This document shows, in pieces, positions 5,493 through 60,338 of a DNA stretch of 64,000 nt (position 1 is its first letter; each line of letters opens with the position of its first letter). The position numbers and the translations under genes were made by a program. The DNA is from Parabacteroides goldsteinii DSM 19448 = WAL 12034 (GTDB lineage Bacteria; Bacteroidota; Bacteroidia; Bacteroidales; Tannerellaceae). The notes under the pieces were generated by a model, which was not told the origin of the DNA, searched no databases, and saw only the letters and a list, made by a program, of their open reading frames with translations. Where the stretch lies: the NCBI RefSeq assembly GCF_000969835.1, contig NZ_KQ033913.1, positions 2,062,807 through 2,126,806 on the forward strand, read 5' to 3'.

Positions 5493-8400
5493 TTAGAATG
5501 AAACATTAATACCTAAACCGAAGCTACGGATACCCGGCTGGTTGGTAGATTCAGAAAATGAGTTTGTACCAAGCGTAGATTCCGGAGTTACGTTCGGAAT
5601 AGCCTTATAGATGTAACATAAGTTGTTGGCAAATGCACTCAGACGTGCGTTCTGGATCTTAAACTTCTGTACAAAGCTTTTCGGCAAGTTGTAGCTGAAA
5701 GACAACGAACGCAAAGCGATGTAGTCGCTCTTATAGATCAAGTCTTCACTCATAGACATATCACTCTGCCAATACAGTTTGCTATAATATTGTTCGGCCG
5801 GGATAACCATTTGGTTAGGCTGTCCGTCAGGAGTCACACCCGGAGTGATCACACCGTCGTGCAAGATAAACGGATAGAATGAGTCAGCAGGAACGGCTGC
5901 TGAGTGGCTATCCAACAAGACACGAGTTTTACCGTCGTTCTTCAAATAATAAGGCAGACCGCCGTGTTCTTCGTCACGATATTTCAATGATTTCTCACCG
6001 GTACCGTTACCCAACAGATACATATTGGTCTGAGAGATCATGGTTGCACCGAACTGGAAGTCGAATACGGCATTCAACGAGAAATCTTTATAAGTCAAAC
6101 CGGTTGTCAAACCACCGACTACGTCCGGCGTGATCTTACCCACCTTAATCTGTTGGTTTCTGTCATATTCCCAAACACCGGAACCTTGATTTACGATACG
6201 ATTGCCTTGTTCATCGCGCTGGTACGGATAGATGTAGATTTCACCATATTCACCGCCAGGGAAGCATAAAACATCTGCACCCTTAACACCCCACATTTTA
6301 AGTTTATCGATACCCTTACCCAACTCTTTTACCTTTGTTGAGTAACGAGCCAAGTTCAAACCCAAATCCCAAGTGAAGTCTTTCGTTACGATCGGTTTCG
6401 TATTAATTGAGAATTCTAAACCGTTCTGGGCGATATCACCAGCATTCATACGAACTTTCTTAAGACCTGAACCTTCCGGAACCTCCAATTCTGTAATCTG
6501 GTCGTAAGTGTTGTTATGAAAATAAGAAAAGTCCAGATTGATACGGTTACCCGGCAAGAATGCGCCTTCCAAACCGATTTCATATTCACGTTTCCGTTCC
6601 GGCTTCAAGTTCGGAACCGGGAAACCGCCATTGGCTCCTGCGAAATCTGCCGGTGGCAAATAGTCAGGCATACCCATGGTCGGGCTACCGCCGTATGAAC
6701 CCAACGAGAAGTCCAAGTTACCATAGTAAACCGGACCCGGACGACCTACGTCAGCCCAAGATCCACGGATCTTACCATAGTTCAACCAATCGATATCGAA
6801 TGTTTCAGTGAAGATCCATGACAAGCTGGCACCCGGATAGAAATAGTGGTTATTTTCGGGAGGCAAGATAGACGACCAGTCGTTACGAGCCTGTACTTCC
6901 AAAAATACCTGGTTAGCGTAAGCCAACTGGGCAGAAGCAAACACACTCAACAACAAGTCATTAGCACGACCTCTACTAGAACGAGGACCAAAGTCTTCAC
7001 GGGTATTGTTCAATGAGAACCAGTTTTCGATAGAAAACGTTTCGCCCACCCATTGTCTCTGATCTTCATACTTGGTATACTTAACGGCACCACCGACCAT
7101 GGCTGACACATTCCAAACATCGTTAAATGTCTGGTTGTAATTGAATGAAGACTGGCCATACATGATCATGTCGCGACGGCTGCCTACTTCATACCAACCC
7201 TGCTTATTTTCCATAGACAACGGTTTACTTACATGTTGCTTCACTTCCTGATCCGTTACCGTCCAGTCCATACCACCCAAGGTTGTCCAAGAGAACTTGT
7301 CGTTGAAAGTAACATCCAAATTCAAAGACTGGATCAAGTGGTTACGCTCTACCATGTTGGAGTTGACTTCCTGAGACCAGTAGTAACTTCCGAAACGACC
7401 TACATATGGTGCTTTCTGTCCGATAGACTGATCCATAGAGAACAGATTGTAACCATCAGGAGTTAAATAATTCTGCTTGATCAGGTTTAAATCCATATTT
7501 CTCGGGAAACCATACGTAGCAAAACTCTGCATAGCATAGGGCGCATTGTGGTCGCGGGTATTCGAATAGTTGGTATTCCATTTCACCTTTACCCAATCGT
7601 TTGCCTTCAAATCAGCAGAGAATGCAAACTGATGCGCTTTGTTGTCGGCATTTAAGGTAATGGCATCGTAATCGCGGTAGTTGTAAGACAGACGGAATGA
7701 ACCCAGTTCGCCACTGTTACTTAAAGCGAAGTTTACGTTGGTCTGTCCACCGGTGCGATACATATCGCGCTGGTTATTTTCGTAAGCCTGGTAGGGATGA
7801 TACTGTCCGTCCCAATCCAACAACATACGACCGTCCATTCTCGGACCGAAGCTACCGTCACCACCACGCCAGATTGACTGAACGGTCTGACCGGTATTTG
7901 GGTCGGTCATGGTCCAAAAACCATCCTTGTCGACTTCCTTTACACCAGCATTACCAGGGCTGGAACCTGCACCGTAGATATTTTGCATTTTCGGCAGGTA
8001 AGCGGCAACATTCCAAGAGTGGTTGACACCGAAGTCGATACCCAACCCTTTCTTACTACCAGATTTTGTAGTTATCAACATAACACCGTTGGCACCTTCC
8101 GATCCATACAATACGGCAGCTTTAGCTCCTTTCAGGATTTCGATAGAAGCAATATCTTCGGGGTTGATATCATTCAAACCCGTACCGTGGTCACTACCCG
8201 TACGGCTATTATCGCTCTGTCCGGTATTGGCATCATGGATAGGAATTCCATCAACCACGATCAACGGACGAGTAGAAGATTCCTGTGTCAAAGAGATTGC
8301 ATTACGAACCTTGATGTTCATACCTCCTGAAGGACCGGCAGCTGTAGATTGTAACTGCAAACCGGAAGTCTTACCATACAATGCTTGCATAGCATTCATC

Positions 8401-8858
8401 GGCGTACCGGCTTCCAACAGTTCCTCCCCTTTCACACTACTTACCGAATAACCCAGTGCTTTCTTTTCGCGCTTGATACCTAGAGCCGTTACAACAACTT
8501 CGTCCAACTTCTGAGTGTCCTCAACCAGCTTTACTTGTACAGAAGCTTGTCCGGTATACTTGATTTCCTGAGTGGCATACCCAATAAAAGAGATCTGGAT
8601 AATGTCACCGTTTTTCACTCCTTCCAACGTAAAGTTACCGTCCATATCGGTAATCGATCCATTGGTTGTTCCTTTCACTACGACAGAAGCACCGGTTACA
8701 GGGCCAAACTCGTCTTCTACCACTCCTGTCACTTTCCCACTTTGCTGGGAAATACTTGATTTAGGCATTGCCACATCTGGGTTTACAGATGCATAGCTGG
8801 GAACCGCCAGGGTACCAGCTAATAGCAATAAGCCTACAGGCTTAAAGTTTTTCAACAT
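5493..8858 (-). CDS. SusC/RagA-like TonB-dependent outer membrane receptor
   Basis: Full-length receptor of 1121 residues: signal peptide (1-23), carboxypeptidase-like regulatory domain (about 40-125, GASVVVKGTTNG and ISFIGYATQ), the KLDEVVVTALGIKR linker, plug domain (about 130-270, with RPLIVVDGIPIHD and AAVLYGSEGANGVMLITTKSG), then a 22-strand-type barrel ending in the C-terminal Phe typical of outer membrane proteins (GLGINVSF). It is followed after 16 nt by its SusD partner. The first 120 residues are very close to the divergent receptor at 9555, while plug and barrel differ widely, so the two likely take different substrates. No STN domain is present, hence no sign of FecR signalling. 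The leader carries the motif at 8895-8904. Confidence 0.97.
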   Translation of the reverse strand: MLKNFKPVGLLLLAGTLAVPSYASVNPDVAMPKSSISQQSGKVTGVVEDEFGPVTGASVVVKGTTNGSITDMDGNFTLEGVKNGDIIQISFIGYATQEIKYTGQASVQVKLVEDTQKLDEVVVTALGIKREKKALGYSVSSVKGEELLEAGTPMNAMQALYGKTSGLQLQSTAAGPSGGMNIKVRNAISLTQESSTRPLIVVDGIPIHDANTGQSDNSRTGSDHGTGLNDINPEDIASIEILKGAKAAVLYGSEGANGVMLITTKSGSKKGLGIDFGVNHSWNVAAYLPKMQNIYGAGSSPGNAGVKEVDKDGFWTMTDPNTGQTVQSIWRGGDGSFGPRMDGRMLLDWDGQYHPYQAYENNQRDMYRTGGQTNVNFALSNSGELGSFRLSYNYRDYDAITLNADNKAHQFAFSADLKANDWVKVKWNTNYSNTRDHNAPYAMQSFATYGFPRNMDLNLIKQNYLTPDGYNLFSMDQSIGQKAPYVGRFGSYYWSQEVNSNMVERNHLIQSLNLDVTFNDKFSWTTLGGMDWTVTDQEVKQHVSKPLSMENKQGWYEVGSRRDMIMYGQSSFNYNQTFNDVWNVSAMVGGAVKYTKYEDQRQWVGETFSIENWFSLNNTREDFGPRSSRGRANDLLLSVFASAQLAYANQVFLEVQARNDWSSILPPENNHYFYPGASLSWIFTETFDIDWLNYGKIRGSWADVGRPGPVYYGNLDFSLGSYGGSPTMGMPDYLPPADFAGANGGFPVPNLKPERKREYEIGLEGAFLPGNRINLDFSYFHNNTYDQITELEVPEGSGLKKVRMNAGDIAQNGLEFSINTKPIVTKDFTWDLGLNLARYSTKVKELGKGIDKLKMWGVKGADVLCFPGGEYGEIYIYPYQRDEQGNRIVNQGSGVWEYDRNQQIKVGKITPDVVGGLTTGLTYKDFSLNAVFDFQFGATMISQTNMYLLGNGTGEKSLKYRDEEHGGLPYYLKNDGKTRVLLDSHSAAVPADSFYPFILHDGVITPGVTPDGQPNQMVIPAEQYYSKLYWQSDMSMSEDLIYKSDYIALRSLSFSYNLPKSFVQKFKIQNARLSAFANNLCYIYKAIPNVTPESTLGTNSFSESTNQPGIRSFGLGINVSF

Positions 8859-8904: not shown

Positions 8905-9382
8905 ACAATGGTCTGTTCTAATTCTTAATAGATATAAATTTCCATAATTCTTTAACACTAAGTGTTTTTTAGTTGGCGTTGTTACCTTAGTACTAAAAGA
9001 ACTCTGGTGATTTTTGTGTTTTAAAAAAGATGAGTAGAAATACTAATGAAACCTAAGGAGTGATTGTAACATATTTGATAATATGTGTATTATGTGTTGA
9101 GTTGTTTGAATACTAGGTGAGCAACTCATATGTATAGTCTGCCTTTTAAGTAGAATTATTTATTGTTCGTTTTTGGGGTAAAATATAATATCTGTATAAA
9201 TGTTAATGAAAAAACAAGGGTATGTTTTGTAAAGGAAAAATCATAAAGCTTTTTAACAAAAGAGATGAGTATTGATTGTTGAATTAACTTAATTACGATT
9301 GAATATTGTTTGCCAATGTGTTAAAAACAAAATTTTGTAATATTTTTTTGACGAAAAATAACATGGGGTAATAATTATTTTA

Positions 9383-9390
9383 TATATTTG
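9383..9390 (+). promoter_or_regulatory. Bacteroides-type -7 element TATATTTG
   Basis: The sequence matches TAnnTTTG, the -7 box of the Bacteroides primary sigma factor. It implies a leader of about 155 nt before the SusC start at 9555. No TTTG is seen at the preferred 19-21 nt upstream; the nearest (9347-9350) is too far, so an activator may be needed. Confidence 0.45.
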
Positions 9391-9516
9391 TCGCGGATAT
9401 AAAATGTACAGAGTTCTTTTAGTACTATGAACGCTTTAAAACGCCAAATCACCAAAGCGCCAAGGAACAAAGTCTCTATACATTATATATCAATAAAGAG
9501 TTCAAAAGTGCTTTTT

Positions 9517-9554: not shown

Positions 9555-12500
9555 ATGTTAAAGAAATTCAGACCGGTTAGCTTAATTTTGTTTGCTGGAG
9601 TATTATGTTTTCCAAAAACATATGCTGAGACAGAAACAGTTAAGCCAGAAGTGAAATTTTCTCAGCAAAGTGGGAAAATCACAGGAACAGTTGAGGATGA
9701 TTTCGGCCCCGTAGCCGGAGCATCCGTAGTTGTAAAAGGAACAACCAACGGTAATATTACCGATATGGACGGTAAATTCACGTTGGAGGGTGTAAAGAAT
9801 GGAGATATCATCCAGATATCTTTTATTGGGTACGCAACTCAGGAAATCCAGTACACAGGGCAAGCCTCTTTACAAATCAAATTAACAGAGGACACACAAA
9901 AATTGAACGAAGTAGTTGTAACTGCATTAGGCATGAAACGTGCAACGAAAGCTTTGGGATATGCCGTAACTGAGATTAAAAGTGACGAATTAAACGCTAA
10001 TGTCATAAACCCAGTCGCTGCTTTACAAGGTAAAGTAGCAGGTGTGGAAATCTCAGGTTCAGATGGTGGTCTCTTCGGTTCTAGTAAAATTCAAATTCGT
10101 GGTGCTTCAACACTAGGCTCCAACAACCAACCAATTTATGTTGTAGACGGTGTTATTCTTGATAATGCAGTTAAGAATGGTGATGCCGACTGGAGCGCTA
10201 GTGATACAGACTGGGGTAATGAACTAAAAAACTTGAACCCTGATGATTTTGAATCTGTTTCCGTATTAAAAGGTGCTGCTGCTACAGCACTATATGGTTC
10301 ACGTGGTTTGAACGGTGCAGTCGTTATTACAACAAAGAGCGGTAAAAGTAAAAAAGGTCTTGGCATCAACTTCTCACAGACGTTTGGTATTGACCATGTA
10401 TATGGAGGACCTGATTTTCAGAACGTACGAGGAGACGGTTACATGTCCGGATACAATAATTACAAATCATCCGGTAATATGCAGGACACAAACTCATTCT
10501 ATTTGAATAGTAATGGAGACCGTTCCGTTGCATGGGGTGGCGGTGTATCTTATGGTCCTAAATTTGATGGTCAACCGATTGAATTCTATGACTATTCGAC
10601 GGTTAATTATTCTCCGTATAAGAACAACTTTACAGATTCATACGATAATGGTTTCAATTCCAATACAAACATATCTGTTCAAGGTTCGAATGATAATTCA
10701 TCATTTTATACGTCGTTATCTTATAAACATGCCGATGGTAATACGCCCAACAACTCATTCAAACGTATTTCCTTCTTAGGCAAAGCGACTCATAAGATCA
10801 CAAAAGATGTAGAGATTGAAGCCGGCATCTCTTTCGCTAATTCAACACCCAAGCAGGGTGGTAATACAAACCTTGGGGAGTATTTTATTGATGGAACTTT
10901 CAGTCGTATGTATGATACCCGTTATTGGAGAACTCGCTATAAAGGTTCTCATGGAGGTTTGGCTAGTACTGATTACAATGATGAATACGGTAATGCTCCA
11001 GGTAAAAATATTTGGTGGAGTATCTATGAGAATGAGTATACCCAAAAAGAAACATCAGTACGTCCCAGCCTAAAATTAACAGCCGATTTAAACAGTTGGT
11101 TGAAGTTTACAGCTGAAGGTAATTACAATTACTACTATAAACGTAACGAATCCAAGGAATTAGGTAGTGGTTACGCGAATGAAGGCGGTTACTACAAATT
11201 GGGACAATACACCAAAGAACAAACCAATTTAAATGCAAACTTCTCTTGGAATAAAGAGGTAAGCGATTTTAATATCAGCGGTTTCATTCGTGGTGAATAT
11301 TATCACAACTATCAACAAGAATTACAGTTGAACACCAACGGAGGATTGGTTATCCCTGGTCAATTCTTTATCGGGAACTCAAAGAATACCATTGGCACTT
11401 CAGGCAATATTTCCGGTGAAAAAACAATTTTATCTGTAGCTGGTCAGCTTGCTTTCAGCTGGAAAGATCAAGTATTCTTAGATGTAACTGGACGTAACGA
11501 CTGGTCTTCATCTTTGGTTTATGCAGACAAGCATGGTAACTATTCATATTTTTATCCGTCTGTATCTGCTTCTTGGTTAATACATGAAACATTCCGTGAT
11601 AAATTGCCGGAATGGATATCATTTGCTAAAGTGCGTGGATCATGGGCACAAGTAGGTAATGATACGGATGCTTATACTATCAACTCTGCTTACTCATTAT
11701 ATGGCATCGACAATACATACGGTTTGACAGTTCCGTCAACATCTTATTCCAATAATTTGAAACCAGAACGTAAAAACTCTTGGGAGTTGGGTCTTGATTG
11801 GCGTGTGCTGAACAATCGTATCGGCGTAGATTTGACTTATTATAAGGAAAATACCAAAAATCAAATCATGTCTATCAGTGTTCCTTCTGAATCAGGATTG
11901 TCTAAGCAGTTGATTAATGCGGGTAATATCCAAAACCAAGGTGTGGAAATCTCATTAAATACAACTCCGTTTGAAAATAAGGATTGGACTTGGGATTTGA
12001 ATTTTACTTATACAAAAAATAATTCTAAGATTGTTGAACTACATGAAAATGTAGCCAATTATATCACATTGGTCGGTGATGCCGCTTATGGTAACTTCCG
12101 TATCGCGTCTGTTGCTGAAGTGGGAGGCGAATATGGTTTGTTGAAATCTGATGCGACTCCTTTCTACGATGAAAAGACAGGATTGCCAATTCTTGAATTA
12201 GCATCTTATAACAGTCGTCATTCTGTTTACTATTCTCGTTCTGGAGAAGTGAAAACTGTCGGTAAAATCCAACCGAACTTCTTAGGTTCTGTAAACACAA
12301 GTTTAAGATATAAGAACTGGACATTACGTGCTTCTTTCGATATGCGTTTTGGTGGTATGGTGGCAATTTATGGTTCTCACTATGGTACTGCTTATGGTTA
12401 TTTGAAAAATTCTCTGAATGGAACAGATGCCGAGCATGGAGGTATTACTTATACTTCAATTTGGGATGGCTTAACTTACGATGATGGTATTATTCCGAAT

Positions 12501-12935
12501 GCAATCATGCCAGGTGGAAAAACGATTGACACTCCGAACGGATCTTATACAATTGCAGAAGGTGGTGAATTGTATGCTGATTTGGTAAACCGTGGTATTG
12601 TTGACCCACAACATGCTTCTTCTTGGAATTATTGGAACAATTCATGGGGACGTGCAGCCGTATGGAAAAACAACGATTGGTTCCATGAGCTGAATTATAT
12701 CGCTTTACGTGAAGTATCTTTAAACTATCGTATGCCAAACAGTATAGCGAATAAGATCGGCGCAGCAGGTATCAATCTGACATTGACAGGACGTAATTTG
12801 GGTTATTTATTAAACTCCCTACCGAATAACTTCAATCCGGAATCACTCCGTGGTACTCAATCCGGACAGTTCCTTATTCGTTCTGTAAGTCCGTATACAG
12901 CTAGCTATATGTTAACAATTAATGCTACATTCTAA
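9555..12935 (+). CDS. SusC/RagA-like TonB-dependent outer membrane receptor
   Basis: Full-length receptor of 1126 residues with signal peptide (MLKKFRPVSLILFAGVL...), carboxypeptidase-like regulatory domain (about 40-125), KLNEVVVTALGMKR linker, plug (QPIYVVDGVILDN, ALYGSRGLNGAVVITTKSG) and a barrel ending in a terminal Phe (LTINATF). The first 130 residues nearly repeat those of the divergent receptor at 5493-8858 and of the partial one at 1-2079; the rest diverges. Its SusD partner starts 22 nt downstream. There is no STN domain. The barrel is rich in Asn, Ser and Tyr with aromatic girdles, as in the family. Substrate unknown. Confidence 0.97.
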   Translation: MLKKFRPVSLILFAGVLCFPKTYAETETVKPEVKFSQQSGKITGTVEDDFGPVAGASVVVKGTTNGNITDMDGKFTLEGVKNGDIIQISFIGYATQEIQYTGQASLQIKLTEDTQKLNEVVVTALGMKRATKALGYAVTEIKSDELNANVINPVAALQGKVAGVEISGSDGGLFGSSKIQIRGASTLGSNNQPIYVVDGVILDNAVKNGDADWSASDTDWGNELKNLNPDDFESVSVLKGAAATALYGSRGLNGAVVITTKSGKSKKGLGINFSQTFGIDHVYGGPDFQNVRGDGYMSGYNNYKSSGNMQDTNSFYLNSNGDRSVAWGGGVSYGPKFDGQPIEFYDYSTVNYSPYKNNFTDSYDNGFNSNTNISVQGSNDNSSFYTSLSYKHADGNTPNNSFKRISFLGKATHKITKDVEIEAGISFANSTPKQGGNTNLGEYFIDGTFSRMYDTRYWRTRYKGSHGGLASTDYNDEYGNAPGKNIWWSIYENEYTQKETSVRPSLKLTADLNSWLKFTAEGNYNYYYKRNESKELGSGYANEGGYYKLGQYTKEQTNLNANFSWNKEVSDFNISGFIRGEYYHNYQQELQLNTNGGLVIPGQFFIGNSKNTIGTSGNISGEKTILSVAGQLAFSWKDQVFLDVTGRNDWSSSLVYADKHGNYSYFYPSVSASWLIHETFRDKLPEWISFAKVRGSWAQVGNDTDAYTINSAYSLYGIDNTYGLTVPSTSYSNNLKPERKNSWELGLDWRVLNNRIGVDLTYYKENTKNQIMSISVPSESGLSKQLINAGNIQNQGVEISLNTTPFENKDWTWDLNFTYTKNNSKIVELHENVANYITLVGDAAYGNFRIASVAEVGGEYGLLKSDATPFYDEKTGLPILELASYNSRHSVYYSRSGEVKTVGKIQPNFLGSVNTSLRYKNWTLRASFDMRFGGMVAIYGSHYGTAYGYLKNSLNGTDAEHGGITYTSIWDGLTYDDGIIPNAIMPGGKTIDTPNGSYTIAEGGELYADLVNRGIVDPQHASSWNYWNNSWGRAAVWKNNDWFHELNYIALREVSLNYRMPNSIANKIGAAGINLTLTGRNLGYLLNSLPNNFNPESLRGTQSGQFLIRSVSPYTASYMLTINATF

Positions 12936-23579: not shown

Positions 23580-24032
23580 CTACTTTTCCCTTGATGGAAA
23601 AGTAGGCAAAAGATCAAGGCTGCACCTGCCTCGCTACTGCGCATCCTCCGTTCGCTGTCGTCTGTGAACTCGCTGCGCTCAAACAGCACAGCCTCTGGAC
23701 GCTCTCTGCGGATGCTTCGCTTAACGCTCATCAGCTGAGGCCTTTCATAGAACGCTTTGCGTTCTCCTGGGATGGCCGATACCGACTGTTGAAAAAGAAA
23801 GGATCTGTTATTATTATATAGGTGTCGGTATCGGCCATCCTAAGAGGAAGCATAGCTTCCTGGGAAAGGCCTAAGCGGGTGAACGTCCGCGGAGATGAAA
23901 GACGGAACGGTTAAGAAAATCCGTTGTTTGAGCGGAGCGAGTTTCGGATTTTCGAGTGGAGTCTTTCACCGGAGCAGTGAAGCCGGTTGAGCCTTGATCT
24001 TTTGGTTACTTTTCTATCAAGAGAAAAGTAAC
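23580..24032. repeat. 453-bp imperfect palindrome with nested compensatory hairpins (non-coding structured element)
   Basis: The ends (23580-23621 and 23990-24032) are inverted copies sharing CAAAAGATCAAGGCT. Each end is itself a hairpin: CTACTTTTCC with GGAAAAGTAG on the left and GTTACTTTTCT with AGAAAAGTAAC on the right, so the base changes between the copies keep the pairing. The centre has a perfect 17-bp inverted repeat (23770-23786 with 23824-23840). Flanking it are hairpins AGAACGC-ttt-GCGTTCT (23749-23765) and GGAAGC-ata-GCTTCC (23846-23860). GAACTCGCTGCGCTCAAAC (23666-23684) mirrors 23926-23945. No ORF of note. It lies between convergent genes and could be a repeat-family element, a structured RNA or a strong bidirectional terminator. 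Confidence 0.8.
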
Positions 24033-51061: not shown

Positions 51062-52219
51062 CTAATGAATCAAGCCATCACCAGCCGGAGAATAAGCACC
51101 GATCTCACCGATATAAGCATATGATGAGCGGGAGTTTGATCCTACATAATACATGAAATAGCGTGCTTTAACAACATTAGCCGCCCTTGAAAACTGAGGG
51201 ATATCGACTACATTATCTAAAGAGTAAACGCCATAGTCCTTCCATCCCATATCATTACTGTCTGTCGGATCAGCCAACGATTCGGCATAGAATATCTGAT
51301 GTGTCGGTTGGGCACCACCGGAGTCGTCCATACGACGATATACTTCAAAACTCGATATATCAATCACTTCTCCCATATCCACTATAAAATAATGAGGAAA
51401 AGGAGCCGTTGGATTATGCTCCGTATGCCACGGAGTATTAATATCTCCATCGATAGCATTCGTTGCCGGCCATTCAGGAGAAGCCGAAGCCGAACTAAAA
51501 GCGACAATCTTCCAGCTGGATTTGTCTATCGGGCTTTCATAATAAATCGGTATACTTTTAGAAACAGTCGTGAAAGTATCTATGGCATTCTCTTCCGGCA
51601 GGAAACGTAAATTATAACTCACATTTCCTTTTAATTTATATAAGGTAGTAGTAGAAGCATCAGCCGGAACTTCCATACGGACCGTTTTATCAGAAATATC
51701 GGTATATTGCAACTCCATACCGACAGCCCCTCTGACTGTTCCTCCCCAATAAATCACCATCGAATCACCTTCCATATCATAACGGGTAAATTCAGTTGTA
51801 TAACTTCTGTTAGAAAGTCCGTTCTTATAGTTCTCTCCATAAGAAGATCCGGTAGCTTCAAACTCTAACGAACGATTACCGAATTTATCAAAGCTGACTA
51901 ATTGGAACAGATATCCGCTTTCCGGCATATCATCGAGTATAACAGGAAAAACACCAGTCTTTCCACCGATCTCGACATCGACAGAGTCTTCATAATTATT
52001 CCAATAAACGCGTAAATTCTCTACACGTTGAGCTTTTACATAAATGTCTAATTGAATCCGGTTCTCGCCTGCCCGAACACCTACACTATCCACTTTTGCG
52101 GCATAAACGATCTCTCCTTCGTCAAGATACTTGTCAGTAAGATCATTCATATCCGTACATGACTGGCTGGCGATTGCCAATAGCATCAGTAATGCAAAAC
52201 ATACTTTATTGAATTTCAT
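51062..52219 (-). CDS. surface lipoprotein with DUF4998 and discoidin-like (F5/8 type C) domains
   Basis: A 385-residue lipoprotein (lipobox SQSC, Cys21). The N-terminal half matches DUF4998-type beta domains (IVYAAKVDSVGVRAGENRIQL, LRVYWNNYEDSV). The C-terminal 150 residues are a discoidin-like sandwich: SASASPEWPATNAIDGDINTPWHTEHNPTAPFPHYFIVDMG...ISSFEVYRR, the usual carbohydrate-binding core. It is the last gene of a four-gene operon (58661 to 51062) with SusC, SusD and another discoidin-like lipoprotein; it probably binds glycan on the cell surface, as SGBP proteins do. No catalytic domain is seen. Confidence 0.88.
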   Translation of the reverse strand: MKFNKVCFALLMLLAIASQSCTDMNDLTDKYLDEGEIVYAAKVDSVGVRAGENRIQLDIYVKAQRVENLRVYWNNYEDSVDVEIGGKTGVFPVILDDMPESGYLFQLVSFDKFGNRSLEFEATGSSYGENYKNGLSNRSYTTEFTRYDMEGDSMVIYWGGTVRGAVGMELQYTDISDKTVRMEVPADASTTTLYKLKGNVSYNLRFLPEENAIDTFTTVSKSIPIYYESPIDKSSWKIVAFSSASASPEWPATNAIDGDINTPWHTEHNPTAPFPHYFIVDMGEVIDISSFEVYRRMDDSGGAQPTHQIFYAESLADPTDSNDMGWKDYGVYSLDNVVDIPQFSRAANVVKARYFMYYVGSNSRSSYAYIGEIGAYSPAGDGLIH

Positions 52220-52237: not shown

Positions 52238-53437
52238 TTATTGATATAATTCAGATCTGTTGTCACCAAACACAAACAGTTCTCCTATCTGGAAATTATC
52301 ACCGCCTGCCCAAGTTCTAAGCACTTTTATACGAATCCATCGAACAGGTGGAACATCCAACGGCATAATAAAATTCTCGCCGGACACAAGAGCAACGTCA
52401 TCATCTTCCGAAGAATGCTGACCTAAAGGAAGCCCTGAAGGTTTTACAGATTCGAAAGTACCCAACAATGTCCAACTATCCCAATTACCTGTAGGATCCA
52501 GATCTGTAGCACCATAAACTTCAAACTGTTTCAGGTTTCCTTCAGAAAAAATATAAGCATCTCCACGTTGATAGAGTAATAAACGACTGATCTTACCTAC
52601 CGCTCCTAAATCAATAGTAATCGATTGAGGCCAAACCCCGGTTCCACCCGGCGAACTAAAACCATTATCACCTGGACCATAAATGCCATCCCATATACGA
52701 GACATCCCCCAACCAGCTCCTTCACCAATATCGTTCGGTAATTTAGCATCGGACCATTTAGTCTTATCGAATGAGGTTTCAAACATAGGTGTCAACTCTT
52801 TATAAAGAGTCGGACTGATATTTCCCCAGCGATCCTTCACGTAGATTCCGAAATCCATTGGAATAGTATCCAAACCACGGGCAGCTCCACTCCCCTCTAT
52901 AACAGTCGTATAAAATGTTTCCAAGGGTTGATAATCTCCATATTCATCTTTACGTACAATATGAACTGTCACCTCATCCCGGTTGTTATTTGTCCACAGT
53001 CCTTGTACCCCCCCAAAATCTTGTACCAAATCAAGTGTCTTACCGATCGTCAACACGGGAGGTTCTTCAGGATTCACCGTTACTTTCACTGGAGCAGATT
53101 CATTACGACTCCGATCCACTGCTATAAGCGAAACCTCACGCGGTTCCATATCGCCAAAACCCACCACCTTGATCGTATCCGTATAAAGAGAACTTTTAGC
53201 TTCAGCCAACCCTTCCTTTAAGTTATAAACGGCTTTAACATAAAGCAAATCTTCATCATCCGGTAAAGTATAACTAAGAATAGCCCCTCCGGGAATATTT
53301 TTTACATTCACATTCGAGACAGCCCCCGGAGCAATGGAATCTATAGGTTGCTGTCCTATTGGAGATTCGCTGCATGACCAAGTGATCAAACCTAGCGTCA
53401 TGACAGACAGTATAATCTTATTTTTCATATTCATCAT
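52238..53437 (-). CDS. surface lipoprotein with DUF4959/DUF5126/DUF5000-type domains
   Basis: A 399-residue lipoprotein (lipobox TWSC, Cys22). The start is the first of two adjacent ATGs. It has an N-terminal Fn3-like DUF4959 domain (IAPGAVSNVNVKNIPGGAIL), a DUF5126-type middle and a C-terminal DUF5000/F5-8 type C-like domain (SITIDLGAVGKISRLLLYQRGDA and PPVRWIRIKVLRTW). It starts 29 nt after the SusD gene and is followed by the second lipoprotein 19 nt later. Proteins of this type act as surface glycan-binding accessories to SusCD. Confidence 0.9.
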   Translation of the reverse strand: MMNMKNKIILSVMTLGLITWSCSESPIGQQPIDSIAPGAVSNVNVKNIPGGAILSYTLPDDEDLLYVKAVYNLKEGLAEAKSSLYTDTIKVVGFGDMEPREVSLIAVDRSRNESAPVKVTVNPEEPPVLTIGKTLDLVQDFGGVQGLWTNNNRDEVTVHIVRKDEYGDYQPLETFYTTVIEGSGAARGLDTIPMDFGIYVKDRWGNISPTLYKELTPMFETSFDKTKWSDAKLPNDIGEGAGWGMSRIWDGIYGPGDNGFSSPGGTGVWPQSITIDLGAVGKISRLLLYQRGDAYIFSEGNLKQFEVYGATDLDPTGNWDSWTLLGTFESVKPSGLPLGQHSSEDDDVALVSGENFIMPLDVPPVRWIRIKVLRTWAGGDNFQIGELFVFGDNRSELYQ

Positions 53438-53465: not shown

Positions 53466-55403
53466 TTACCAACCGTAATTTTGTACAAGATTTTTATTAG
53501 TAATAATATTCGTCTCCCGGATAGGCATAAAATAATCTTTCACCGTAACTTTTACAGGAACTTCAGCCACATTCTGCAACTTATAAAAGTCTTCAGGTGT
53601 CTCACCCATGATATTCCACCCCTGAGGCTGTATATTATAAGTATCGATCTGCTTCCAACGACGAATATCCCAATAACGTTTGGATTCAAAAGCAAACTCA
53701 ACCGTTCTTTCATCATGGATAATATTACGCAAACCTTCTTTTGTCGTCGGTTTAGACGGATCGGTAGAATATTTACTCCATGAATCTATTACCCCCTCCA
53801 ATCCGGCACGTTCACGAATCCGGTCTATATATTCATACACTTCTGCCGAAGGACCGGAATATTCATTCAATGCTTCCGCATAAAGCAAATAAAGATCAGC
53901 CAAACGGATAACAGGAAAAGGGTAATATTCCGGTTCTGCAATAGTACTGTTAGTAACACCGTTTTTATAACTGGCCATTTTCTTCGGAGCGTAACCGGTT
54001 ATAGAATAGGAACTACCCCCTTGGTAACCGGACCACCCCAAATTTAAAAAGTTGGTATAGTTACATGACTCGAAGTCGTTTTTCCCGTTTCCGTAGTAGA
54101 TTCCCTGGTCGAAACCTATGCTGGCATAAAAACGAGGTTCACGGTTATAGTGCATATAACAAGTACGTTGTCCTTCCTTTACAAAATATTTCTCATCTCC
54201 GGAGGAAGGTTCCGAACGTAATTCATAGCGTTTATCATACCATCCCTCTCTGCTCCACTGTTTATCTTCATTCATAGGGACACCATTGGATGTATAAAAA
54301 CGTTCCACTGTTTTAATTGTCGGAGCCCATTGAGCACTGATTGTATTGATTATTCCTGCATCGATACGTACAACACGAGGGGTCGAATGATAGGAACGAT
54401 CCCTGCATTGACTATTCGTACCTCCCCATATCAACTCACAGTTCCAACGTTCGCAAACAACCTGACGCAACATGGTCTGCAATTGGAACACAGGATGTTG
54501 AGTCACTGTGATCGGTTCAATTTCCGTATACAGTTTCTTTCCGGCGCCATGACAAGCTTCTATCGCTTCTTTACAAGCATCTGCAGCAATTTTCCATTTT
54601 TCAGGATCATACGTTTGATTAAACAAGACTGTCCCGCGATTATCTATCAGTCCTGCCATTTCTGTATTACCATTAAACAAAGGGCTGGCAGCCATTACCA
54701 ACATCTCTGCACGAACAGCCAAAGCTATCTGTTTATCAACACGACCGCCTTCAATACTCATAACCATGTCTTTATAATCCGGCAGATCAGGCAAAGCTTC
54801 CAAAATCAGATCATTTACATAAGTCACCACATCATCCACTTTATCACGATAAACCGCAACCTGTTCAGGTGAAGCAGAAACTGGTAGGTTTTCATCTATA
54901 ATAGGTATAGGACCATAGCATTTCAACAGATAATAATGATAATATGCCTTTAAGAATTTCACTTCAGCAACCCAACGAATACGTTCAGATTCTTCCAAAT
55001 CAACCGTACTAGCTATGTTCTCCAAGAAGATATTACAATCACGGATACCAATGAATAAGCCTTTACCACCTTGCAGACCATCCCAAAAATTCAGATAAGG
55101 ATCATCTAGTTTTTGAAAACCACGTTGTAGATAAGAAGATGTAAACGTTGGAAATACATGTGATGCTATCGGATAGAACTGCCATGTCTCGTCACCACCG
55201 TTAATCGCCGGGTCATTAAATAAATCCCCCCACTGCGGGCGATAACTGTAACAAGTATATAAAAACTTTTCGGCTGCAGCTCGATTCGTAAAAGCTGACT
55301 CAACCGTTGCTACGTTATCCGGTACTAAATCCAGATAACCGTCACACGAGGTAAATACCTGTATTAATGCTGTAAACATTAATATTTTATAGAATGCTTT
55401 CAT
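53466..55403 (-). CDS. SusD/RagB-like surface glycan-binding lipoprotein
   Basis: The ATG at 55403 is preferred over a TTG at 55442, giving a signal peptide MKAFYKILMFTALIQVF with lipobox FTSC (Cys20) and 645 residues. Mature N-terminus DGYLDLVPDNVATVESAFTNR, the helical-repeat core with WVAEVKFLKAYYHYYLLKCYGPIPI, and the C-terminal VEFAFESKRYWDIRRWKQ motif all fit RagB/SusD. It follows the SusC gene by 57 nt. The protein has a long insert (about 330-450) rich in Trp and Tyr that may extend the binding face. Confidence 0.94.
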   Translation of the reverse strand: MKAFYKILMFTALIQVFTSCDGYLDLVPDNVATVESAFTNRAAAEKFLYTCYSYRPQWGDLFNDPAINGGDETWQFYPIASHVFPTFTSSYLQRGFQKLDDPYLNFWDGLQGGKGLFIGIRDCNIFLENIASTVDLEESERIRWVAEVKFLKAYYHYYLLKCYGPIPIIDENLPVSASPEQVAVYRDKVDDVVTYVNDLILEALPDLPDYKDMVMSIEGGRVDKQIALAVRAEMLVMAASPLFNGNTEMAGLIDNRGTVLFNQTYDPEKWKIAADACKEAIEACHGAGKKLYTEIEPITVTQHPVFQLQTMLRQVVCERWNCELIWGGTNSQCRDRSYHSTPRVVRIDAGIINTISAQWAPTIKTVERFYTSNGVPMNEDKQWSREGWYDKRYELRSEPSSGDEKYFVKEGQRTCYMHYNREPRFYASIGFDQGIYYGNGKNDFESCNYTNFLNLGWSGYQGGSSYSITGYAPKKMASYKNGVTNSTIAEPEYYPFPVIRLADLYLLYAEALNEYSGPSAEVYEYIDRIRERAGLEGVIDSWSKYSTDPSKPTTKEGLRNIIHDERTVEFAFESKRYWDIRRWKQIDTYNIQPQGWNIMGETPEDFYKLQNVAEVPVKVTVKDYFMPIRETNIITNKNLVQNYGW

Positions 55404-55460
55404 GTAAACTAATTTATTGATTAATAGAATCAAATAAGACAAAACTCGTTACAACTCTCA

Positions 55461-58400
55461 TTAGAAGGAAATCTGAGCTCCCAAATTGAATACACGCTGA
55501 ACCGGATATCCTAAACCATTTCCACCCATTTCAGGATCCCACAATTTGAAAGGACTAAATGTAAGCAGGTTCGTGCCGCTGAAATAGATACGAAAGTTCT
55601 TTACAAAGACTTTTTTAAGTACATTGGTCGGAACTGTATATCCGAACTCCAATGATTTCAAACGCAAGAATGAACCATTGCGCATAAACCAGGTAGACGG
55701 TTTCTGATTATTCTCTACAGCTTCATAAGATAAACGTGGCCACAAAGCATACAGGTTACGATTATCTTCAGACCAGTGATCATCTGCATATGCTTTTAAC
55801 AAAGCATTCTGTCCGTTGAGGAAAGGTAGAGTTCCGTTATCCGTTGATGTGTCGATCCAGAATGATTCCCGAGCCAATCCCTGGAAGAAGAAAGATAAAT
55901 CCCATTGTTTATATCCTCCGGACAGACCGAAACCATACACAATTTCCGGACTGGTTGGATAACCCATCGGTACCATATCCAATTCGGTAATCTTACCATC
56001 GTTATTGATATCTTTATATTTGATATCACCGGCCATATAATTACCAAACTGACTCGGCGAATTACGGATATCTTCTTCATCTGCAAACAAACGTTCAGCC
56101 ACATAACCGAAATTCTGATTCAGGGAAGTCCCCAGTTTCGACTTCCAAGGCGTTGCACTGTAATCCGGCTCTTCATAAGCAGTAAACTCACTGGTTGCAT
56201 AAGTGAAGTTAGCCATCCCCGTCAACCAGGCATCATTATTAATCATATGGTTATAGTTCAACGACAGGTCGATACCACTACTTTTAGCTTTTCCCACATT
56301 AGCCATTACATCAGCCTGAAGCCCCATAGTTGTAGGAATAGAAGCACGTGACATTAAAATATTCCAACGGGATTCCATAAAATAATCCGCCTGCAATTCC
56401 AATTTATCAAATAGTCCTAACTCTACACCCAGGTTTGTTTTCCGGGCAGTCTCCCAGGTTATATCCTCGTTCGGGTAACGAGAGATCGAAACACCATTCA
56501 ACGTACGTCCTCCAAAATTTCCATAAGTACCGAACGACGATTGCTTTCCATCGCTATTCATATTTACTTCCGAAATATAGAAAAAACGATCTTCAGGTCT
56601 GCCAATCGCATCGTTACCGGATAACCCGTGAGTGACTTTCAGTTTCAATTTGTTAATCGTTTTCTTCAAATCGTCATTCCAGAACGCTTCACTAGAAACA
56701 AGCCAACCAAGTCCCATTGAAGGGAAGAAACCAAAACGTTCCTTTCTGGCAAAACGTTCGGAACCGTTATAACCGAAGTTTGCTTCAAGGAAGTAACGCG
56801 AATCATAAGCATAAGTAGCACGACCGGCAAAGTTCACATTACGTGAAGGTAATGAAAGTTGTAATGTATTGGCGTCGGAAGTCAGGGATTGACGAAGTGT
56901 GAAAACCAACATAGCACCGACAGCATGCTTTTCATTATAAGTTTGATTCCAGTTAGCTGCCGTTTCAAAATAAGTTGTAGAACTAACTACTTTATTACCG
57001 GGAACAAAGTCTAATGTTTCACGTCCATCCTGTTCGTTAAGGGGGGCCAAAATATAAGTATCCTCCAACTTATTATAGGAACCTATTCTATAGAAGAATG
57101 GTACATATTGACGAGACACATCAAAATAACCATATCGATTTGTATTGAACATAGCACGAAGAGACAATCCTTCTGTGATAAAATCCAAATTCTGCTTCAA
57201 TTCGAACTGAGCTGCCATCTGAGATGTTTGCGTATCTTTATATCCTTTCAACATATCTGCATACGGGTTATTATACTGTCCCTTGTCTGCATTACCGAAT
57301 AATATATGTTTGGTATACTGATTTGCTTCATCAGCCGGATAAGAAGGGGCGAACAAAACAGGGTTAGTCCGCATTACTTTCGCGAACAGCTGATCGCCAC
57401 CATCTATCGGTCCGGTATAGTCATCAAATGCACCGCTCAAACGAACGACAGCTTCTGTCGTTTTGGTAACATTGATATTTACATTGGCACGAAGCATATA
57501 TCGTTTCAAGTTGATATTATTATTGAAACTGCTCTTTTTATCGACATTCAATACGCCCTTATCCGAAATATAACTGCCGGCAATGTAATAACGAGCGACT
57601 TTACCACCACCACTTACGTTAAAGTTGGCACGGTAGTTGAATGTATTATTCTTGAATAGTTCGTTATACCAGTCCGTAGCCGGATAAACGTACGGATTCA
57701 CACCGGCAATCGTATTATCTATCTTCTGTTGCGAATAAGGTAGTGCCCCCATCGGGTTACGTGTCAAAACGGCTTCATTATGAAGACGCATATAGGTTAT
57801 CGGATCGGCCAGCTCCACCATTTTTGTCGGTTGCGACATAGAACCTTCCAACCGGATACTTACCTGGGCGGCCCCTTCCGCTCCTTCTTTCGTCGTTACC
57901 AAAATAACACCGTTAGCACCACGAGACCCATAAAGGGCTGTTGCTGTGGCATCCTTCATAATAGAAAAAGAAGCGATATCATCCGGCTGAATGCGGGATA
58001 ATTCCGTAGTAGTAACCTCATTGTTATCAATAAGAATGAGAGGATCTTTTTTATAACCGAAAGTAGTCACACCACGAATAAAAAATTCAGCATTGTCTTT
58101 TCCCGGTTCGCCACTTCGTTGATAGGCAATCACTCCGGACAGACGTCCGGCCATTGCCGTAGTCAGGTTGCTGGAAGGAACTTTTAATTCCGATGGATTC
58201 AAGGTTGTAATAGATCCGATAACACTTTCCTTCTTTTGTTTGGCAAAAGCAACGACGGTCACTTCCTCCAATTCATCCGTTTTGGGTTTCATTGTGATTA
58301 CAAGATCCTTCTTATCCTTGACCGTTACAATCTGATCTTCCATACCCAGATAAGAAACAGTCAGTTTCTCACCAACCGAAACACTGATCACAAATGATCC

Positions 58401-58661
58401 GTCGATATCTGTGGCAACACCTCTTGTGCCACCAACGAGAACTATATTTGCACCGGGAAGAGGCTCTCCCATATCATCAATTACTTTTCCTTTTAAATTG
58501 AAGGTTGCCTGACTCTGATTCGGAATAATCCTACTTGAAGCTGATTTACCCCTATCTACTCCTACATTAACCGACGCAAAAGATATTGTATAACTAAAAA
58601 CACATAGAATAGTTAGGGATACAGCTTTTCCTTTTATATTACTGCATATAGATTTATTCAT
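55461..58661 (-). CDS. SusC/RagA-like TonB-dependent receptor
   Basis: A 1066-residue receptor with signal peptide, carboxypeptidase-like regulatory domain (about 50-130, ATFNLKGKVIDDMGEPLPGA and LTVSYLGMED), the ELEEVTVVAF linker, plug (KDPLILIDNNEV, TALYGSRGANGVILVTTKEG) and a barrel that ends in terminal Phe (NLGAQISF). There is no STN domain. It leads a four-gene operon with SusD and two glycan-binding lipoproteins and no hydrolase, so the enzymes for its substrate must be elsewhere. The 19-bp inverted repeats at 58770-59027 lie about 110 nt before the start codon and are a likely switch. Confidence 0.96.
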   Translation of the reverse strand: MNKSICSNIKGKAVSLTILCVFSYTISFASVNVGVDRGKSASSRIIPNQSQATFNLKGKVIDDMGEPLPGANIVLVGGTRGVATDIDGSFVISVSVGEKLTVSYLGMEDQIVTVKDKKDLVITMKPKTDELEEVTVVAFAKQKKESVIGSITTLNPSELKVPSSNLTTAMAGRLSGVIAYQRSGEPGKDNAEFFIRGVTTFGYKKDPLILIDNNEVTTTELSRIQPDDIASFSIMKDATATALYGSRGANGVILVTTKEGAEGAAQVSIRLEGSMSQPTKMVELADPITYMRLHNEAVLTRNPMGALPYSQQKIDNTIAGVNPYVYPATDWYNELFKNNTFNYRANFNVSGGGKVARYYIAGSYISDKGVLNVDKKSSFNNNINLKRYMLRANVNINVTKTTEAVVRLSGAFDDYTGPIDGGDQLFAKVMRTNPVLFAPSYPADEANQYTKHILFGNADKGQYNNPYADMLKGYKDTQTSQMAAQFELKQNLDFITEGLSLRAMFNTNRYGYFDVSRQYVPFFYRIGSYNKLEDTYILAPLNEQDGRETLDFVPGNKVVSSTTYFETAANWNQTYNEKHAVGAMLVFTLRQSLTSDANTLQLSLPSRNVNFAGRATYAYDSRYFLEANFGYNGSERFARKERFGFFPSMGLGWLVSSEAFWNDDLKKTINKLKLKVTHGLSGNDAIGRPEDRFFYISEVNMNSDGKQSSFGTYGNFGGRTLNGVSISRYPNEDITWETARKTNLGVELGLFDKLELQADYFMESRWNILMSRASIPTTMGLQADVMANVGKAKSSGIDLSLNYNHMINNDAWLTGMANFTYATSEFTAYEEPDYSATPWKSKLGTSLNQNFGYVAERLFADEEDIRNSPSQFGNYMAGDIKYKDINNDGKITELDMVPMGYPTSPEIVYGFGLSGGYKQWDLSFFFQGLARESFWIDTSTDNGTLPFLNGQNALLKAYADDHWSEDNRNLYALWPRLSYEAVENNQKPSTWFMRNGSFLRLKSLEFGYTVPTNVLKKVFVKNFRIYFSGTNLLTFSPFKLWDPEMGGNGLGYPVQRVFNLGAQISF

Positions 58662-58769
58662 TATATTGATATTAAGTTTAACAATTAAATATGTTAATTA
58701 CTGATACTATTGAATAGGTTCATTTTATGTCTTCATAAGCTATTTCATTTATGTTACTGACTATTAGTT

Positions 58770-59027
58770 CTTGTGGAACTATGTTAATATCAGAAACACA
58801 AAAAAGAAGACATGCATTGTATATCAATACATTAACAATTTAACACATAGTTAACACAAAAAGATTCCGTGGATTACATATCTGTTTTCAAGATGACTTT
58901 CGAAACTTATTTAGGGATAGTGCCAGTTTTATTATATTAAATATCATTTTTGTAACTTGTGATTTTTATTTAATACGGATATTTGTAACAATTAACAATC
59001 CGGATTAAATTAACATAGTTCCACAAG
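58770..59027. promoter_or_regulatory. candidate invertible promoter segment flanked by 19-bp inverted repeats
   Basis: 58770-58788 (CTTGTGGAACTATGTTAAT) and 59009-59027 are perfect inverted copies; extending outward gives 23 of 25 matches. The left arm also holds GTTC-N5-GAAC. The 220-bp interior contains GATATTTG at 58978-58985, one base off TAnnTTTG, reading to the right, away from the SusC gene at 58661; inversion would turn it toward the gene. This is the layout of phase-variable promoters in Bacteroidales. No recombinase of the usual Tyr or Ser type is in the window. Confidence 0.6.
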
Positions 59028-59342
59028 GACTGAGGATACCTTTAAACAACAAATATGAAATTGTGAAAAAATATGGCAAAAGAGAAACCTGCCATATCTG
59101 TAAATAGATTACATTGTAAAGAGATGAATCTTTCTTTTATAACGGGAGAGTAACTTTTCCCCTCTCGAGAGGGGGAAGGGGGTGAATTCTAAGTCCTCTC
59201 CAAACAATATCTATAAAATCTTACCCAAGTTTACGAACATTAACGTATCCTTGGGTAAGTTCGTATATAGACATAATTACTCTTCAGAAGTGTATAGCTA
59301 CTTCCTAAATCTAAGATGTTTTCGAAATTAAGGGCCTTTTTA
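59028..59342. other. 315-bp non-coding stretch with two hairpins, right-hand flank of the IS110 transposase
   Basis: The palindrome CCCCTCTCGAGAGGGG lies at 59159-59174. A 10-bp stem CTTACCCAAG/CTTGGGTAAG lies at 59220-59259, partly extended by TTACGAAC and GTTCGTA. No ORF. The right end of the IS110 element should lie in this stretch, but IS110 elements lack terminal repeats and I could not fix it. Confidence 0.55.
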
Positions 59343-60338
59343 TTATACGACTAATGTTACAAATGGAGTCTGTCTTCGTATCACAGCAAAAGACCTTGCT
59401 ATGATTTTGGCTCTTACAGCATTGATTACAGATGCTTTATGTTTCCCCTCCGCTATTTTCCTTTTATAATATGCTTTCATCTGCGGATCCCAAGAGATGG
59501 CAGTAATAGCTGCCCGGGTAAGGTACACTTTTACTTCTTTGTTAGCCAATGGAGAAGTCTGCGTTTTTCCCCGTATGGAAATACCTGAAGTATGTTCAAA
59601 GGGAGCAACCCCGCAATAACAAGCAAACTTCCTTGGGTTGTCAAATCTTTGAAAATTGTTAGTAACACACAGTAATACAATGGCATTGATTATCCCTACA
59701 CCTTTTATACTTCTTAATAACAAGTAGTTTGTGCAAAGAGAACAACTAGCGGCTATTAGTTGCTCCATAGCCTCTTCCACCTGCAGGATCTTTTCTTTTA
59801 TCGACTTGAGCTGCTCTTCCAAAAAAGAAATGGAGTCTGTCACATCAGCCAACTTGGCCATCTGGGAGAATGTTTCCAATAACTTTATGCTTGATACTTT
59901 TTGCTTGACCAAATTGTCACGTATAATAATCCATCCCCGCAGTCTCACCAAGTCTTTGTCAGGCAATTTGTATAACTCTAGTTTTCGATAGTGTAATACC
60001 GCATAGTTCGCTATTCTTTTAGCGTCAATGCGGTCATTTTTGCCTCGTTGCAAGCCTATGGACTTCTTGATGGTCAACGGGCAAACCAAAGCTAGGGAAA
60101 AACCCATAGAGGCACTGGAAACAGATAACTCTGTGACATAACTTCCCATGTTTTCAGCACAGAACAAGAGTTTGGATAAAGAGAGATGATAACCTGCTAT
60201 CCAATCTAATAAAGATTGGATCCCTTCTGAAGTGTTATCAAAAGACTTGTGAGACAACTCTTTTTCGTCCGCAGACATTAAGGATGCATCGAAAGTTTTT
60301 TTCCCTACATCAAGACCTACAAAATGAGAATAATTCAT
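59343..60338 (-). CDS. IS110-family DEDD transposase/recombinase
   Basis: The 331-residue protein has an N-terminal RuvC-like DEDD domain with Asp10 in GLDVGKK, Glu62 in CAENMGSY, and Asp102 and Asp105 in GKNDRIDAKR, then a coiled-coil, then the C-terminal Tnp_20 domain with IKGVGIINAIVLL and YCGVAPFEHTSG (Ser251, the expected nucleophile). All key residues look intact and there is no frameshift, so it may be active. IS110 enzymes recombine DNA guided by a bridge RNA; related Piv proteins invert DNA. The upstream leader at 60365-60545 has the right position and structure for such an RNA. Confidence 0.95.
   Translation of the reverse strand: MNYSHFVGLDVGKKTFDASLMSADEKELSHKSFDNTSEGIQSLLDWIAGYHLSLSKLLFCAENMGSYVTELSVSSASMGFSLALVCPLTIKKSIGLQRGKNDRIDAKRIANYAVLHYRKLELYKLPDKDLVRLRGWIIIRDNLVKQKVSSIKLLETFSQMAKLADVTDSISFLEEQLKSIKEKILQVEEAMEQLIAASCSLCTNYLLLRSIKGVGIINAIVLLCVTNNFQRFDNPRKFACYCGVAPFEHTSGISIRGKTQTSPLANKEVKVYLTRAAITAISWDPQMKAYYKRKIAEGKHKASVINAVRAKIIARSFAVIRRQTPFVTLVV

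Follow-up and report, generated by a model that had tools for sequence, protein, structure and literature searches.

A putative invertible promoter upstream of a SusC/SusD operon in Parabacteroides goldsteinii and its class of paired AGTTC-n5-GAACT sites

The analyzed DNA is a stretch of 64,000 nucleotides from Parabacteroides goldsteinii DSM 19448 (the window, at its full length), in which a 266-base element (58766-59031) is located upstream of an operon encoding a TonB-dependent receptor with a CarbopepD_reg_2 domain followed by a SusD_RagB protein, as in SusC/SusD operons. The element is framed by inverted-repeat arms that are perfect over 19 bp (58770-58788 and 59009-59027). A repeat search extended them to 22 paired bases of 23 with a spacing of 220 bp, and two further bases per arm, read by eye, bring the pairing to 23 of 25, which bears out the arms described in a first-pass annotation of this DNA. 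The repeat is well beyond chance, since the arm 19-mer with up to three mismatches occurs at just two places in the 64 kb (0.06 expected) and two copies were found in none of 100 shuffled sequences. The proximal arm lies 104 nt from the ATG of susC (58661), close to the earlier estimate of about 110 nt. The arms enclose a short stretch between genes, in front of a gene for a surface protein. In both arms, ATGTTAAT adjoins the dyad AGTTC-TTGTG-GAACT (AGTCC in the distal copy) on its inner side. An Rfam scan gave no match, a terminator search at the element found none, and a 21-base word from the arms had no matches in viral contigs.

The element precedes the same susC gene in Parabacteroides faecis JCM 18682, the closest relative compared (locus L001), and in Parabacteroides pacaensis (genome G080, species name inferred; locus L245). 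Over 8.1 kb including the genes and the element, P. faecis and the window are 90.8% identical, and the distance between arm and ATG in P. faecis is likewise 104 nt. The first-pass annotation had named the absence of the arms from close relatives with the same gene order as evidence against a switch; both species carry them with the same gene behind. The 5-bp centre is alike in the two arms of each species and differs between species (TTGTG/TTGTG in the window, TAGTG/TAGTG in P. faecis, and TTGTA/TTGTA in P. pacaensis), as expected if a tyrosine recombinase requires identical overlap regions. In all three species the interior is oriented alike, with 85.2% identity forward versus 38.4% reversed for P. 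faecis and 56.6% versus 38.2% for P. pacaensis. Its proximal half is less conserved (71-87% identity to P. faecis, 32-50% to P. pacaensis) than the distal half (Table 1). Upstream DNA was examined for 42 of 79 susC relatives, mostly the best-ranked ones (L046-L078, L009, L013, L021, and L034 lie outside this sample), and among these 42 the element is clear in P. faecis alone and marginal in L006 and L042. The susC relatives L002-L008, which are 62-69% identical and come from outside Parabacteroides, are without it. In Prevotella sp. P5-108 (L036), the susC homologue is preceded at 123 nt by a 42-bp inverted repeat that differs in sequence and is possibly another switch.

Related arms, which the first-pass annotation had suggested looking for together with a recombinase, are present in the window itself. 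This second element (Table 1) lies between divergent susC genes at 5493-8858 (minus strand) and 9555-12935 (plus strand), and a perfect match to the Bacteroides -7 consensus used here (TAnnTTTG), TATATTTG at 9383-9390, faces the right-hand gene. At locus L261 (G079), the flanks are in register with the window at 73.5 and 78.3% identity, and the interior is 67.7% identical when reversed versus 45.2% forward. At L262 (G054), the corresponding values are 74.2 and 64.1% for the flanks in register and 64.7% reversed versus 47.0% forward for the interior. L259, L264, L266, and L267 likewise have a reversed interior, judged by the left flank alone, and the state of the window is matched by none of the judgeable relatives. 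The perfect -7 box faces one susC gene in the window and the other one in the reversed relatives, and the element is likely a two-way selector between the divergent genes. It is direct evidence of inversion for this class of sites, showing at least one inversion and giving no rate.

Sites of the form AGTTC-n5-GAACT were counted in 123 Tannerellaceae genomes. The strict pattern AGTTCTnnnAGAACT gave 230 matches in total versus 65 for the reversed control, and the five richest genomes had 24, 23, 21, 20, and 14 sites versus 3, 1, 0, 0, and 0 control matches. At least one strict site was found in 40 of the 123 genomes, and the control exceeds the sites in some (0 versus 5 in G046, 1 versus 4 in G045). 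With a free centre, the site-rich genomes gave 31 sites versus 5 control matches (P. pacaensis), 46 versus 2 (G079), 45 versus 2 (G054), and 54 versus 2 (G050). Neighbouring sites 100-600 bp apart (n = 58) were inverted with matching centres in 47 cases, direct in none, and neither in 11, and the 47 inverted pairs use 28 different centres. This count is based on sites scoring 9 or 10 of 10, with homologous elements of related species counted separately; many paired loci came from pattern searches, which introduces a bias toward sites, not toward pairing or orientation. A perfect TAnnTTTG box facing an arm at a distance of 5-70 nt is present in 31 of 43 distinct segments, versus 5.1 expected and a maximum of 12 in 500 first-order random sets. 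The second element of the window fell below the score limit of the script and is outside these 43 segments.

The site pairs of P. pacaensis are located near SusC/TonB-type receptors at five loci (L247, L249, L250, L252, and L257), near TIG-NHL proteins at three (L248, L253, and L254), and near an outer-membrane efflux gene at L246. A site pair was also found in 8 of 20 relatives of the second susC locus of the window, and 1.09 Mb of sequence from the susC relatives L002-L079 contained one, in P. faecis (L010). At L247, two sites (5141 and 9524; G080:C3:818141-822536) form a pair 4.4 kb apart, one of them within a SusC-like gene, close to its start, which is suggestive of a shufflon. Other patterns were tried and rejected: the first motif guess, AGTTCnnnnnGAACTATG with up to one mismatch, gave counts near the control in nine more distant genomes, and a loose 16-mer with three mismatches gave 86 matches in P. 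pacaensis, fewer than its control (117), only close matches being meaningful. Among 12 genomes, GTTCnnnnnGAACTT was found 36 times versus 8 for the control in P. pacaensis and 14 versus 11 times in G038 (little excess), with no excess in G045 (20 versus 42) or G056 (23 versus 23). Copies of AGTTCnnnnnGAACT were most numerous, among the 123 genomes, in G010 (81 versus 2 for the reversed pattern) and G031 (61 versus 6).

Inside the element before the operon, a -7-like box, GATATTTG, which matches five of the six consensus positions, has the same direction and the same 31-nt distance to the distal core in the window, P. faecis, and P. pacaensis. It sits in the conserved distal half and is the only box with at least five matches that is common to all three species. 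Because this conserved box points away from susC, the switch is quite probably OFF in the orientation of the window, in agreement with the earlier suggestion that the locus may be off in this assembly. Inversion would, by arithmetic, place the box at 58812-58819 on the minus strand, facing susC. The first-pass annotation had described a near-consensus promoter directed away from the gene; the direction holds, with a Bacteroides-type box, and the term near-consensus was too strong for a five-of-six match at chance level. A scan with an E. coli-type consensus promoter was near chance as well (7 matches versus 4.6 ± 2.1 in shuffled sequences).

We infer, with a probability of about 0.82, that positions 58766-59031 form an invertible promoter element of the tyrosine-recombinase type in front of susC, inversion and promoter activity at this locus being predicted from the sequence. 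The phase-variable promoter proposed in the first-pass annotation is supported by the orthologous arms, the concerted change of their centres, the pairing and the boxes of the site class, and the reversed sister element. In the proposed mechanism, a tyrosine recombinase would bind the palindromic AGTTC-n5-GAACT sites in both arms, pair the arms through their identical 5-bp centres, and reversibly invert the 220-bp interior. The interior promoter, predicted near the distal end, would fire away from susC in the assembly orientation (OFF). After inversion, it would face susC, susD, and the two following genes (ON), giving a leader of about 145 nt. Invertible susC promoters are a known kind of switch in Bacteroidales, and the element is very probably a further example and part of a larger Parabacteroides/Tannerellaceae site class. 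With it, invertible promoters in front of SusC-type nutrient receptors would also be represented by a Parabacteroides site class, for which the rule of AGTTC-n5-GAACT with the same centre in both arms can find such switches from sequence alone.

Several observations speak against this interpretation. Of 500 random sequences with the composition of the window, 460 had a five-of-six box near an arm, and boxes of this grade also face susC (TAACTATG at 65 nt in the window, TGTGTTTG at 13 nt in P. faecis, and GAGATTTG at 30 nt plus two more in P. pacaensis), at no place common to the three species. A perfect -7 box is lacking in 12 of the 43 class segments, including the window element and its two orthologues. 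A flipped copy of the window locus was found in none of the three assemblies, one per species, and the site pair is absent in 12 of the 20 relatives of the second susC locus, some of which are cut by contig ends. Since the box is imperfect, five-of-six boxes occur at chance level, and some of them face susC, the confidence in an invertible promoter was lowered from 0.86 to the present 0.82.

The element might also be a former switch that is now locked, with no more inversion or with a decayed promoter, and with susC driven from elsewhere or by a weak facing promoter. The single orientation in three species, the imperfect -7 box in a class where 31 of 43 members have a perfect one, the boxes facing susC, and the single mismatched base in one half of the distal palindrome (AGTCC) all agree with a locked state. 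We nevertheless consider it unlikely, because the arm centres changed in concert while three species diverged, none of the boxes facing susC is common to them all, and conservation is higher in the distal half than in the proximal one, whereas even drift would be expected of a dead element. The sites are dyads, as is frequent among operators, and the palindromes could in principle be an operator pair for a DNA-looping dimeric regulator. However, operators do not require centres that are identical, locus-specific, and in inverted register (47 inverted, none direct, 28 centres) and would leave the reversed interior of the sister element unexplained, which makes this explanation highly improbable. 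Just as improbable is a miniature inverted-repeat transposable element inserted upstream of susC, as suggested by a short segment with terminal inverted repeats and by an IS110-type transposase gene (59343-60338) between the element and a MATE gene, because the 12-base outer flanks differ and show no target-site duplication, the position is the same in three species, the arm centres and interiors vary among loci, and the IS110 stretch has no counterpart in P. faecis, which carries the element.

A candidate enzyme for the inversion of the predicted promoter was found in P. pacaensis, which has 27 Phage_integrase matches. L166 is a 388-aa recombinase (G080:C3:302231-303394; PF17293, PF13102, and PF00589), and an inverted repeat similar to the site (AAGTCTTTGCAGAACTT) flanks its gene on both sides, a feature for which it was picked before its distribution was known. 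Close homologues, defined by at least 48% identity (next matches at most 36%), are present in 41 of the 123 Tannerellaceae genomes, including G049 with two fragments. They occur in 26 of the 27 genomes with at least two strict sites versus 15 of the 96 others (Fisher test, 5e-15, phylogeny uncorrected). In 23 of these 26 genomes, the homologue is near full length or matches from the N-terminal part on, and those of G010, G029, and G031 match in the C-terminal three quarters only. In Bacteroidaceae, homologues passing E ≤ 1e-45 (34-58% identity) occur in 23 of 151 genomes, including all four genomes with at least four sites (43-53%). Linkage is partial: of 20 genomes (18 Tannerellaceae and 2 Bacteroidaceae) searched over 13-17 kb of DNA surrounding the gene, 7 have a site pair, about 5 kb away in 5 of them. 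A site-like inverted repeat brackets the homologue gene in G080, G190, and G208 and is found just beyond the gene in G055. Outside these 20 genomes, in G012 one site touches the gene match with its partner about 600 bp past the other end, and in G029 one site adjoins the match; the other fetched genomes have no site at the gene.

This co-occurrence is correlative and makes the L166 family a good candidate, both the presence of such an enzyme in the genome of the window and its role being predicted. We give roughly even odds that the invertase is an orthologue of L166 in P. goldsteinii, acting from a distance on many loci. The balance also has to include contrary findings. No tyrosine recombinase was found among the 40 window open reading frames scanned (105 listed). 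Of the 27 integrase matches of P. pacaensis, only L166 was tested across genomes. In 12 of the 41 homologues, the match starts at residue 74 or beyond, and an internal stop interrupts those of G055 (14 sites), G029, G124, and G127. No close homologue was found in G063, which has 10 strict sites, with 15 of its 31 candidates scored, and 15 genomes have a homologue with fewer than two strict sites. The free-centre pattern is at or below the control in several homologue bearers (6 versus 7 in G012, 14 versus 23 in G045, 9 versus 25 in G046, and 6 versus 14 in G059). The closest Bacteroidaceae homologues (54-58% identity; G130, G183, G202, G219, and G277) come from genomes without strict sites, and three Bacteroidaceae genomes with three sites have no L166 homologue.

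Other integrases of P. pacaensis (L174, L177, L179, L180, and L182) have private inverted repeats unlike AGTTC-n5-GAACT at or beside the gene end and are likely local invertases. NCBIfam models, applied to 20 of the 27 integrases, assigned L160 to XerD above the cut-off and gave no match for L178, the others being below the cut-off.

More tentatively, and with slightly less than even confidence, one L166-family tyrosine recombinase could be the master invertase of surface-receptor promoters across Parabacteroides, with the free 5-bp centre serving as a local address, so that each promoter would flip alone and the loci would largely be kept from recombining with one another. Independent flipping is suggested because the arms of one locus share their centre and most loci differ; the centres shared between the P. 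pacaensis loci L245 and L248 and between L249 and L254 weigh against it. Loss of the named candidate would provide a test of the whole set of switches together.

Several known systems resemble the element. The recombinase Tsr0667 of Bacteroides fragilis is reported to act on three SusC/SusD clusters as well as nine further regions (PMC4747536; also named in PMC11852207). Its invertible regions resemble the window locus in their surface-protein targets and are described as shufflons, in contrast to the simple two-state promoter predicted here. The AGTTC-n5-GAACT class may represent this system in a different genus. The ragA/susC shufflon of region EE in B. fragilis NCTC 9343 (PMC5729914) likewise combines inverted repeats with an invertible promoter in front of susC/ragA homologues, but its repeats overlap gene starts and move whole genes, whereas the window element covers the upstream 266 bp only. 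The invertible capsular polysaccharide promoters of Parabacteroides distasonis (PMC12118408) share the genus and the palindromic inverted repeats around a promoter. They have the repeat GCTACTYRGNRAGTAGC (314-345 bp) and capsule operons with an integrase in front, unlike the 266-bp window element with its AGTTC-n5-GAACT arms and susC gene and no integrase in the scanned open reading frames. Assignment to this capsular class (GCTAC...GTAGC) was therefore rejected, as the window arms are AGTTC...GAACT and lie by susC. In the B. fragilis IVp-I/IVp-II system, one tyrosine recombinase (BF2766/Tsr19) inverts a local and a distant promoter with the TAnnTTTG -7 consensus; it differs in acting on EPS (exopolysaccharide) and vesicle-related genes, with two targets reported (PMC4747536). 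Catalogues of inverted-repeat motifs exist (PMC11892184) and may already contain AGTTC-n5-GAACT. A search by motif letters, mostly outside the subscription literature, found no publication of it as a Bacteroidales inverted repeat, which is weak evidence of novelty. The GAAC matches in PMC12548429 and PMC10773633 are primers, and another motif match is a pneumococcus paper.

Table 1. Positions of the putative switch elements and operon genes in the window
Feature	Position	Strand	Details
Proximal arm	58766..58788	+	Core AGTTC-TTGTG-GAACT at 58766-58780
Distal arm	59009..59031	-	Core AGTCC-TTGTG-GAACT, - strand, at 59017-59031
Segment predicted to invert, 220 bp	58789..59008	.	Between the arms
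-7-like box GATATTTG, 5/6 of TAnnTTTG	58978..58985	+	Points away from susC, 31 nt to distal core
Conserved distal half of the element	58918..59031	+	95-100% identity to P. faecis, 66-89% to P. pacaensis
Second element, same site class	8988..9427	+	Arms 8988-9006 and 9409-9427, 19/19 paired
susC homologue, 1066 aa, first in line behind the element	55461..58661	-	Pfam CarbopepD_reg_2 and Plug; 98% identical in P. faecis
susD homologue	53466..55442	-	SusD_RagB
DUF4959/DUF5126/DUF5000 protein, behind susD	52238..53437	-	Domain match
DUF4998 and F5/8 type C protein, next in line	51062..52219	-	Domain match

Elsewhere in the window, an imperfect inverted repeat of unrelated sequence is formed by 41-nt arms at 23581-23621 and 23990-24030, about 370 nt apart.
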